A DNA stretch of 64,000 nucleotides from Streptomyces marinisediminis (GTDB taxonomy: Bacteria > Actinomycetota > Actinomycetes > Streptomycetales > Streptomycetaceae). The notes below the pieces were generated by a model. That model ran no database searches and was not told where the DNA came from. It worked only from the letters and a program-made list of their open reading frames with translations. This document shows positions 8,267 to 11,385 of this stretch, one piece after another. The number at the start of each line of letters is the position of its first letter. Positions within the stretch are counted from its first letter, which is position 1. Both the position numbers and the translations under genes were made by a program. The DNA is taken from the NCBI RefSeq assembly GCF_026262575.1, contig NZ_JAPKFL010000001.1:248001-312000 (forward strand), in the 5' to 3' direction.

Positions 8267-9493
8267 GTGGACGTACAGTCAAGACTCGACGACATCGTCG
8301 CGGCGGTCCGCAGCGCCCGCTCCATGCCCATGTCCGCCTCCTGCGTGGTCAACCGGGCCGAACTGCTCGCGCTGCTGGAGGAGTTGCGCGAAGCCCTGCC
8401 CGGCTCGCTCGCCGAGGCCCGCGAGCTCCTCGGGGGCCGCGAGCAGATGGTCGCCGAGGCGCAGCAGGAGGCCCGGCGCATCATCGACGCCGCGCACTCC
8501 GAGCGCGGCTCCCTGGTCTCCGGCACCGAGGTCGCCCGCCGCTCCCAGCAGGAGGCCGACCGCATCGTGGCCGAGGCGCGGCAGGAGGCGGACCGCATCC
8601 GCGCCGAGGCGGACGACTACGTCGACAGCAAGCTGGCCAACTTCGAGGTCGTGCTGAGCAAGACCATCGACTCCGTGGGTCGCGGCAAGGACAAGCTGCT
8701 GGGCCGCGCCCCGGACGCCGACGACCACGGTGACGACGGCGGCGCCCCCGAGCGCGTCGCCGACCCGCGCGAGCTGCGCGAGCGGGCGGACGCCTACGTC
8801 GAGACCCAGTTCCAGGCGTTCGAGGCGGTGCTGACCAAGACGCTCAGCGCCGTGGGCCGCGGGCGCAGCAAGCTCGGCGGCCACCGGCCGATCGACGAGC
8901 TCGGCGCCCACATCGCCGCCCAGGACGAGGCGGGGGCCGAAGGCCACCACCGGGTGCACGTCAGCGACGCCGACTACCTCGCCGGGCTCGCCGATCCGCA
9001 GGCGGAGCAGCCCGCACCGCCGCAGCCGCGCACCCCCGCCCAGGCCCCGCCCGAGCCCGCCCCGTACGCACCCGCCGCCGCGTACGAGCAGTCCTACGGC
9101 CGGCAGTCCTACGGCCAGGGGCAGGACACCCACGGCCAGGGCGCCCACGGCCGGGACGCCTACGGCCAGGGTCAGGACGCCTACGGTCAGGTCCAGGACG
9201 CCTACGGCCGGCAGGAGGCCGGCGGCCCGGGGGAGACCTACGACTACCCCCAGCAGGCCTATCCGCCCCAGCCCGGCTCCTACGCCGACTACCCGCAGCC
9301 CTACGCGGACCCGTACGCGGCCGATCCGGCGTACGCCCCCGACGCGGCCTACGCCCAGCACCAGGGGTACCCGCCGCAGCCGTCGCCGTACGAGCAGCAG
9401 CCCCAGGCCGCCCCGGCCCTGGACGAGACCAGCCTGTTCGACACCAGCATGATCGACATGGAGCAGCTCCGCCGCTACGAGCAGGGCGGCTGA
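8267..9493 (+). CDS. DivIVA/ATP-synthase-B-like coiled-coil cell division protein
   Basis: The 408-residue protein has a long charged coiled coil at about residues 35-135, rich in Ala, Glu, Arg and Asp heptads, and a second related helical block near 165-200; the motif FEVVLSKTI in the first is echoed by FEAVLTKTL in the second. The C-terminal part (about 265-385) is a disordered Gln/Tyr/Gly/Pro-rich tail of imperfect AYGQGQD-type repeats. It ends with a conserved-looking block SLFDTSMIDMEQLRRYEQGG. Such proteins are annotated as cell division initiation or DivIVA-related in Streptomyces; a role at membranes or poles is inference. I chose GTG 8267 because VDVQSRLDDIV begins the conserved region, and it appears leaderless. 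Confidence 0.8.
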   Translation: MDVQSRLDDIVAAVRSARSMPMSASCVVNRAELLALLEELREALPGSLAEARELLGGREQMVAEAQQEARRIIDAAHSERGSLVSGTEVARRSQQEADRIVAEARQEADRIRAEADDYVDSKLANFEVVLSKTIDSVGRGKDKLLGRAPDADDHGDDGGAPERVADPRELRERADAYVETQFQAFEAVLTKTLSAVGRGRSKLGGHRPIDELGAHIAAQDEAGAEGHHRVHVSDADYLAGLADPQAEQPAPPQPRTPAQAPPEPAPYAPAAAYEQSYGRQSYGQGQDTHGQGAHGRDAYGQGQDAYGQVQDAYGRQEAGGPGETYDYPQQAYPPQPGSYADYPQPYADPYAADPAYAPDAAYAQHQGYPPQPSPYEQQPQAAPALDETSLFDTSMIDMEQLRRYEQGG

Positions 9494-9615
9494 GCCGGCC
9501 CGGAGCGACCCGTCGGCCCCGGGCCGCTTTGGAGCCGGTGCCGGACGGCCGCGGACCGGTGCCGACGCCCGCGGAGCGGGCCCGGGCGGCGTCGGCCACC
9601 TGCGGCTTCGCCGAA

Positions 9616-9645
9616 TTGGGCGAAGCGGGCCCGGTGAAGTAAGCT
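9616..9645 (+). promoter_or_regulatory. Candidate promoter of the DUF177-rpmF-rnc-mutM cluster
   Basis: TTGGGC (9616-9621) and TAAGCT (9640-9645) are separated by 18 bp and precede the cluster by about 80-110 bp. The -10 fits TANNNT; the -35 is a partial match. A perfect 8-bp inverted repeat, GCTTCGCC at 9605-9612 with GGCGAAGC at 9619-9626, overlaps the -35 and could be an operator or the terminator of the preceding gene. Confidence 0.5.
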
Positions 9646-9756
9646 GACGTTTCGGTCGCACCGACGCCCGCCTTTCCGGCTGCCCGGAACCACCGCAGCC
9701 GTTCGAGACGAAAGCAGGAAGCCCTGAACGCCCCCCTCGACCCCCGCGCCCCGCTC

Positions 9757-10359
9757 GTGTTCGACACACGCGAGCTGGGTCGGCGTCCGGGTGCCATGAA
9801 GCGGCTCTCCCGCACCGTGGACGCTCCGAAGGACCTCGGCACCGAGGTCATCGGCGTGCCGGAGGGAGCCCAGGTGGACCTGGACCTCCGCCTGGAGGCG
9901 GTCATGGAGGGCGTGCTCGTCACGGGGAGCGCGCGTGCGCCGCTGACGGGGGAGTGCGTAAGGTGTCTGGAGCCGCTGGAGCAGGAATGCGAGGCGGACT
10001 TCCAGGAGCTGTTCTCCTACCCCGACGCCGACGACCGGAGCCGTTTCACGGACACCGGTGACGACGCCGAGGACGAGGACGACACGCTCAACCTCGAGGG
10101 CGACCTGTTCGACCTCGAACCGGTGCTGCGGGACGCGGTGGTGCTCTCACTGCCCATGCAGCCCGTGTGCCAGGAGGACTGCCCGGGGCTCTGCCCCCGG
10201 TGCGGCGCCCGGCTCGCGGACGATCCCGACCACCAGCACGACGAGGCCGTCGACATCCGGTGGGCGGCCCTGGAGGGACTCGCCGAGGACATCCGCCACG
10301 GCGAGAAGGACAACGTGGACGGCACCGCACCCGGTGCCGACGAGAAGCAGGAGAAGTAG
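9757..10359 (+). CDS. DUF177 (YceD-type) protein upstream of rpmF
   Basis: YceD/DUF177 proteins are almost always encoded directly before rpmF and are implicated in 23S rRNA or ribosome maturation; the exact role is not settled here. The protein has two cysteine motifs, CVRC near residue 69 and CPRC with upstream cysteines near residue 145, consistent with a zinc ribbon. The coordinates use the first canonical start, GTG 9757, but that codon has no ribosome site (only C-rich sequence). The frame is open upstream and reads ALNAPLDPRAPL, which resembles the N-terminus of Streptomyces homologues as I remember them. The likelier start is CTG 9724, five bases after AGGAAG. The gene ends two bases before rpmF. 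Confidence 0.85.
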
Positions 10360-10361
10360 CC

Positions 10362-10535
10362 GTGGCCGTTCCCAAGCGGAAGATGTCGCGCAGCAACACG
10401 CGCCACCGCCGGTCGCAGTGGAAGGCTGCGGTCCCCACCCTGGTCAAGTGCGAGCGCTGCCAGGAGCCGAAGCAGCAGCACATCGCGTGCCCGAGCTGCG
10501 GCACCTACAACAAGCGTCAGGTCCTCGAGGTCTGA
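10362..10535 (+). CDS. rpmF: 50S ribosomal protein L32
   Basis: L32 is a small zinc-binding protein of the large subunit. The 57-residue product begins [17 protein letters not shown], the canonical N-terminus, from a GTG two bases after the upstream stop. The zinc site is CERC near residue 30 and CPSC near residue 43. The ribosome site lies inside the end of the preceding gene (GAGAAG), so the two are translationally coupled. It is followed after 19 bp by rnc. Confidence 0.96.
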
Positions 10536-10554
10536 TCGGCGGGTGACAGGCTCC

Positions 10555-11385
10555 ATGTCAGACGCCAGCAAGCCCACGGGGGCAACGGCGGGTCTGGTGG
10601 ATGCGGCCTCGTCCCACACGCTTCTGGAAGGGCGGCTCGGGTACCAGCTTGAGTCCGCCCTTCTGACGCGTGCGCTGACGCACCGCAGCTTCGCGTACGA
10701 GAACGGCGGGCTGCCGACGAACGAGCGTTTGGAGTTCCTCGGCGACTCGGTCCTGGGCCTCGTGGTGACGGACACGCTCTACCGCTCGCACCCGGAGCTG
10801 CCCGAGGGCCAGCTCGCCAAGTTGCGGGCGGCGGTCGTCAACTCCCGGGCGCTGGCCGAGGTCGCACGCGGTCTGGAACTGGGCTCGTTCGTCCGCCTCG
10901 GGCGGGGCGAGGAGGGCACCGGCGGCCGGAACAAGGCGTCGATCCTGGCCGACACCCTGGAGGCGGTCATCGGCGCCGTCTACCTCGACCAGGGACTGAC
11001 GGCGGCGGAGAAGCTGGTGCACCGGCTCTTCGACCCGCTGATCGAGAAGTCGGCGGGGCTGGGCGCGGGCCTGGACTGGAAGACCAGCCTCCAGGAACTG
11101 ACCGCCGCCGAGGGGTTGGGCGTGCCCGAGTACGTGGTGACCGAGACCGGCCCGGACCACGAGAAGACCTTCACGGCTGCTGCCCGCGTCGGTGGTGTCG
11201 CGTACGGCACCGGCACCGGCCGCAGCAAGAAGGAAGCCGAACAGCAGGCCGCCGAGACGGCCTGGCGCGAGATCCGCGCGGCGGCGGACGCGGGGGGCGA
11301 CTCCGCCCCTCCCACCGCCGGAACCGAGGCGGCGGGCGAGGCCGAGGCCGCCCCGGTGCGCGAGAGCGCGGACCGCAGCGTGTAG
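10555..11385 (+). CDS. rnc: Ribonuclease III
   Basis: RNase III cleaves double-stranded RNA in rRNA processing and mRNA decay; in S. coelicolor the gene is also called absB because its loss blocks antibiotic production. The 276-residue protein has the catalytic domain with signature [15 protein letters not shown] at about residue 56, the second acidic site [14 protein letters not shown] near 128, and a C-terminal double-stranded RNA-binding domain at about 170-240 ([10 protein letters not shown] start). A low-complexity Ala/Glu tail follows. ATG 10555 is preceded by ACAGG; GTG 10543 in the same frame is possible and would add four residues. It follows rpmF and precedes mutM, the standard actinobacterial order. 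Confidence 0.94.

Follow-up and report, generated by a model that had tools for sequence, protein, structure and literature searches.

A weak CTG start codon of the DUF177/YceD gene upstream of rpmF is very probably kept by selection in Streptomycetaceae

The window, the whole 64,000-nt stretch of Streptomyces marinisediminis DNA analyzed here, carries on its + strand a DUF177/YceD gene followed by rpmF (ribosomal protein L32) and rnc. The DUF177/YceD protein matched the PF02620 profile with an E value of 6.1e-32 (110.6 bits against a gathering cut-off of 33.2). Its score with the NCBIfam equivalog model for YceD was 22 against a cut-off of 192 and, therefore, equivalence to E. coli YceD is not claimed. 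The features of the locus are as follows, with counts from the 244 sequences described below.

9616 to 9645, + strand: promoter-like sequence, TTGGGC (9616-9621), 18 nt, TAAGCT (9640-9645)
9640 to 9642, + strand: in-frame stop TAA, upstream of the DUF177 gene
9710 to 9719, + strand: GAAAGCAGGA, an extended element of Shine-Dalgarno type whose end is 4 nt from the CTG, near-invariant in relatives and predicted to form a duplex with the 16S 3' tail
9724 to 9726, + strand: proposed start codon CTG; the position holds CTG, ATC, GTG or TTG in 221 of 244 sequences, and in the remaining 23 an in-frame ATG precedes it by two codons
9724 to 10359, + strand: DUF177/YceD coding sequence, 211 amino acids if read from the CTG, PF02620
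9727 to 9756, + strand: codons 2-11, a conserved N-terminus with coding rhythm, lost from gene models begun at GTG 9757
9757 to 9759, + strand: GTG, the first canonical in-frame start, rejected as the main start
10362 to 10535, + strand: rpmF (ribosomal protein L32), GTG start 2 nt past the DUF177 stop, PF01783
10543 to 11385, + strand: rnc (RNase III), the third gene; longest reading frame, with the start as given by the frame

The same three genes in S. coelicolor, SCO5570-SCO5571-SCO5572, are reported as a single operon (PMC5775266, seen in part), and the SCO5570 protein was detected by mass spectrometry in a pull-down according to the portion of PMC10771440 consulted. No paper on the start codon of DUF177/SCO5570 was found in the literature searched. 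An rpmF start was found past the DUF177 stop in all 244 sequences, with a gap of exactly 2 nt in 241 of them, and this constant spacing (10357-10364 in the window) suggests that the two genes may be translationally coupled. The gene upstream, which runs to 9493, has a repetitive Tyr/Gly/Gln-rich tail of QSYGQGQD-like units at 9090-9230, and Pfam gave no match for the stretch 8279-9490.

The sequences were collected in three sets. The first was 80 named Streptomyces loci, with the genus taken from the locus name and not from GTDB. The second came from 199 genomes drawn evenly from the genus Streptomyces, 197 of which had a match; 30 loci and 100 regions were taken from the matches listed. The third came from 61 family genomes in 17 genera, which provided 28 new loci and 20 fetched regions. 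These 258 loci were re-anchored by tblastn and gave 244 distinct Streptomycetaceae sequences, 204 from Streptomyces and 40 from 16 other genera. In 21 sequences of nine genera (g2-g5, g9-g11, g14, g15), the start was set one codon nearer the VFDT residues that begin at GTG 9757, since the N-terminus is one residue shorter; this placement was post hoc and thus fitted. Sequence L139, which carries an insertion of one codon, was read by eye and scored as CTG.

The codon aligned with CTG 9724 was CTG in 175 of the 244 sequences, ATC in 32, GTG in 11, TTG in 3 and a non-start codon in 23; ATG was found in none. CTG or ATC therefore occupies the position in 207 of 244, and 54 of the CTG sequences also carry an upstream ATG. 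Examples are S. cinnamoneus (L066) for the CTG class and S. lydicus (L035) for the ATC class. An in-frame ATG two codons upstream is missing from 127 of the Streptomyces sequences; these have CTG (93), ATC (23) or GTG (11), and nothing else. The 77 with this ATG had CTG (54), TCC (10), CCC (7), CAC (3), TCT (2) or CCT (1). Non-start codons were thus seen in 23 of 77 Streptomyces sequences with the upstream ATG against 0 of 127 without it (Fisher 1.7e-11, with tips that are not independent). The 40 sequences of other genera had CTG in 28 (L139 included, by eye), ATC in 9 and TTG in 3. No sequence among the 244 lacks both a start-capable codon at this place and the upstream in-frame ATG.

The same picture was seen in a pattern search, in which 288 of 392 genomes matched. 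Among the matches listed, 81 further ones came from genomes outside the even genus sample; the pattern required AGGA plus part of the coding sequence, and species overlap with the named loci is possible. The 47 without the upstream ATG had CTG (34), GTG (7), ATC (5) or TTG (1) and no non-start codon, and the 34 with it had CTG in 21 and a non-start codon in 13. As a control, the rpmF start codon was read across the 244 sequences: it is GTG in 243 and ATG in one. The positive control, infC, had ATC aligned in 29 of 30 Streptomyces loci; the thirtieth (L288), with a partly repeated N-terminus, also reads ATC by eye.

From the letters of the window, the sequence-only reading had proposed a rare non-canonical start at this CTG. 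The CTG start is supported, as relatives begin at the same place with AGGA at ribosome-binding distance. It is not an oddity of the strain, since CTG is the ancestral state of the family on our tree. The most similar named locus, that of Streptomyces sp. JJ38 (86% identical), has CTG too, with an in-frame stop five codons upstream. Sequencing error as the source of the CTG was ruled out by the number of separate assemblies.

Next, we asked where coding begins. The first ATG, GTG or TTG in frame after the stop TAA at 9640-9642 is at exactly 9757, as had been read from the sequence, and a start at this GTG (Val12) would make the preceding eleven codons an untranslated leader. The codon is nearly invariant (GTG in 239 of the 243 Val codons, one change, tied fourth lowest of 68 conserved codons), which fits such a start, but other codons are equally invariant, for example Leu135, Ala138 and Val148. 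Moreover, comparison across the family showed the N-terminus from the CTG to be conserved, with codons 2-11 under strong protein-level constraint: counted by parsimony, a site changed 3.8, 3.1 or 18.3 times depending on whether it was codon position 1, 2 or 3 (222 sequences). The upstream stretch from -36 to -16 showed 51.7, 50.6 and 47.0 changes per site and no rhythm, and the ribosome-binding region between the two was quiet. Homologues that begin at VFDT would have spoken for the GTG; instead, this codon is GTC in L282-L285 and ACG (Thr) in L281. By eye, the sequence near GTG 9757 shows no ribosome-binding site, in agreement with the sequence-only reading. GTG 9757 is not the main start because coding constraint sets in right after the CTG and, in 236 of 244 sequences, the conserved GAAAGCAGGA precedes the start by 3-7 nt. 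We consider initiation at GTG 9757 in place of the CTG very improbable, and its use as a minor second start is possible.

Within the gene, at 9958-9963, GTA (Val79) is kept in 233 of 241 sequences and AGG (Arg80) in 219 of 241. GTA and AGG are rare codons in Streptomyces. Their retention may be a sign of nucleotide-level constraint inside the DUF177 gene.

The AGGAAG that had been noticed just upstream of the CTG lies at 9716-9721. From the end of AGGA to the start there are 6 nt in 107 sequences, 4 nt in 106, 5 nt in 14, 3 nt in 5 and 7 nt in 4, and in the remaining 8 of 244 AGGA is absent or more distant. The 3' sequence of the 16S rRNA in the same genome is GGCTGGATCACCTCCTTTCT, and GAAAG and AGG of the window's leader pair with it around one mismatch at -8.9 kcal/mol. 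The mean duplex energy over the 244 sequences was also -8.9 kcal/mol, compared to -4.5 for 976 control windows taken further upstream and -6.4 after shuffling of the leaders; 5.5% of the control windows reached the leader median. For comparison, infC of the same genome gave -10.2 and the sigR site -13.1 kcal/mol. The Shine-Dalgarno pairing of the DUF177 leader is, therefore, moderate.

The promoter-like sequence is found upstream at a median distance of 96 nt. Relatives have TTGG(G/A) and TANNNT at this site: the permissive pattern was found in 244 of 244, TATCCT in 209 and a spacer of 18 in 211, counts that carry no chance control. This promoter-like sequence and the conserved ribosome-binding site would both speak against a leaderless transcript. 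Right after the promoter-like sequence, at 9646-9695 and in relatives, there is a short hairpin (GGTCGCG / CGCGATC in many) followed by GGCTGCCCG. In 26 hand-chosen leaders, 90.1% of the pair cells hold and 8 cells changed on both sides, values that 0 of 500 shuffles reached; the number of pairs with a two-sided change was reached by 108 of 500. The window's own copy of the hairpin is degenerate, its leader folded with no more structure than shuffles (z -0.64), and Rfam gave zero matches for 9480-10600. Since cleavage by RNase III of the transcript of its own operon has been reported (PMC5775266, seen in part), the hairpin is a lead for the cleavage site.

We also weighed a canonical start upstream, with the CTG as an ordinary leucine codon and, in the clade with AGGA-ATG-GCY-CTG, the ATG as the only start. 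Of the 204 Streptomyces sequences, 77 have this ATG in frame, and it is always present where CTG became a non-start codon, so it is able to serve, and it is possibly already the main start throughout its clade. However, it abuts AGGA with no spacer, and seven events on the tree took it out of frame while CTG or GTG stayed. Among 143 CTG or ATC sequences without this ATG and with the stop visible, 48 have no ATG, GTG or TTG between that stop and the CTG or ATC; in the other 95, a canonical codon does occur in frame farther upstream, the closest of them at -5 codons. The region upstream has no coding rhythm, and the AGGA-to-start spacings differ by amounts not divisible by 3, which leaves no conserved upstream frame running into the gene. 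The CTG, furthermore, was never exchanged for the synonymous CTC. An upstream start is, in our judgment, very improbable.

The history of the codon was traced on a FastTree phylogeny of 1433 downstream columns, which we rooted with genera g2 and g5. CTG was ancestral on this tree, with 12 changes in all: two gave ATC, four GTG, one TTG and five a non-start codon. The two ATC clades have 9 and 23 tips, with support of 0.997 and 0.983. The in-frame upstream ATG was gained once (90 tips) and lost or frame-shifted 7 times. The idea that an original ATG had changed to GAA just before the CTG finds no support in these data, as the GAA is part of the conserved ribosome-binding site and the nearby in-frame ATG is derived. 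In most GTG sequences of the upstream-ATG clade, the ATG survives out of frame (ATGGCGTGA). In L079, L115, L185, L187, L197 and L248, the GTG start overlaps such an out-of-frame ATG, which abuts the ribosome-binding site; it is possible that in these Streptomyces the ATG acts as a competing start.

Outside Streptomyces there were 73 matches, and 65 loci from other actinobacterial families were read. In several of them (among others L322, L323, L326, L163, L158, L153 and L346, with ATG in L141), a GTG or ATG stands in the homologous column, and this supports a start there. In several other families, an ATG or GTG is found about 8 codons upstream instead. L164, L317, L325 and L334 have CTG, with no canonical codon back to the stop (L325) or within 14 codons (the others). 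The weak start may thus be older than Streptomycetaceae, with CTG in two other actinobacterial families under thin sampling.

Changes of the first base that would make ATG, GTG or TTG numbered 5, compared to about 20 expected from fourfold-site rates on the same tree (P = 7e-5), rates that include codon bias and come from parsimony, which undercounts changes. Conversions to canonical codons are thus about four-fold depleted. On the same basis, CTC was seen 0 times against 6.2 expected (P = 0.002). ATG was also seen 0 times, against 2.4 expected (P = 0.09), which is not significant alone, and selection against ATG as a separate claim was dropped.

Another possible explanation is that CTG is the start but its weakness is a historical accident with no regulatory meaning. 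CTG may be merely adequate, given the drift to GTG or TTG in several lineages, and the four events to GTG and one to TTG show that the non-canonical codon is not indispensable. The gene is also reported as non-essential in the bacteria tested, E. coli included (PMC5049393, seen in part). Against this, CTG was kept, or twice became the equally non-canonical ATC, while upstream sites changed about 50 times, and there is the depletion of conversions to canonical codons. We regard an accident as possible but unlikely. The comparison makes it highly probable that the DUF177/YceD gene starts at CTG 9724 and that the weak codon is kept by selection.

Non-canonical starts have precedents in Streptomyces. 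According to Feeney et al. (PMC5472188, seen in part here and below), very few starts of this kind are characterized at all, and prediction restricted to ATG, GTG and TTG hides them. The GTC start of S. coelicolor sigR is repressed by IF3 (PMC5472188). Like the DUF177 gene, sigR has a non-canonical start conserved across Streptomyces with a ribosome-binding site upstream, is the first of two closely spaced genes and is missed with ATG/GTG/TTG-only starts. The two differ in codon (GTC against CTG or ATC), in product (a sigma factor against a ribosome-related protein), in 16S pairing (-13.1 against -8.9 kcal/mol) and in that the IF3 effect is shown for sigR and inferred for DUF177. The IF3 gene, infC, starts with ATC in Streptomyces and ATT in E. 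coli (PMC5472188), and with AUA in S. aureus (portion of PMC13009471 consulted). It, too, is a translation-machinery gene with a non-canonical start, the same ATC as in 32 DUF177 family members; in contrast, infC is autoregulated by its own product, and any IF3 control of DUF177 would act on another gene. The DUF177 gene is, by sequence comparison, a candidate to join infC (ATC) and sigR (GTC) as a Streptomyces gene with a conserved weak start.

In S. aureus, cvfC1 (AUU) and ccpN (AUA) also have conserved non-canonical starts, with reporter output of about 10-30% of AUG (PMC13009471, in the part seen). They share with DUF177 an extended Shine-Dalgarno sequence, but belong to another phylum, have other functions and were shown by footprints and reporters. 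Results from M. smegmatis count against efficient use of CTG: in a reporter selection, CTG starts showed no enrichment (0.03%), and those with ATC were retained at just 0.2% (PMC4633059, seen in part). As here, a DUF177 gene lies directly upstream of rpmF in the E. coli yceD-rpmF operon, and loss of yceD lowered 23S rRNA (both in the part of PMC5049393 seen). No weak start is described there, as the text of that paper contains "start codon" 0 times.

The following mechanism can be proposed. Initiator tRNA would read CTG 9724 as (formyl)methionine, and GAAAGCAGGA, which ends 4 nt ahead of this codon, would position the ribosome by pairing of its GAAAG and AGG with the 16S 3' end. Across Streptomycetaceae, most sequences have CTG or ATC and, without a nearby in-frame ATG, the codon is swapped only for another start-capable one. 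By analogy with infC and sigR, IF3 would repress initiation at CTG and ATC. Little DUF177 protein would then be made relative to L32, whose gene follows after 2 nt on the same message, and DUF177 output could respond to the level or activity of IF3. The DUF177 gene is thought to help build ribosomes, and the benefit of the weak codon is likely a low ratio of DUF177 protein to L32, or a link of initiation fidelity to large-subunit assembly. A more speculative proposal, which we consider rather doubtful, is that the DUF177-rpmF-rnc operon acts as an initiation-fidelity sensor. Scarce or impaired IF3 would lead to more initiation at CTG or ATC, more of this 23S-accumulation protein and, by coupling, more L32. 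Large-subunit assembly might then track the state of the initiation machinery, a suggestion that we hold just as tentatively.

The family-wide weak start makes a strong comparative case in a ribosome-related gene, and the regulatory part is what we infer from other genes. If the weak start is true, gene models that begin at GTG 9757 would need a corrected N-terminus, and one more operon would allow a direct test of how far IF3 control extends in Streptomyces. The lineages with CTG, ATC, GTG, TTG and the upstream ATG would provide a ready natural experiment.
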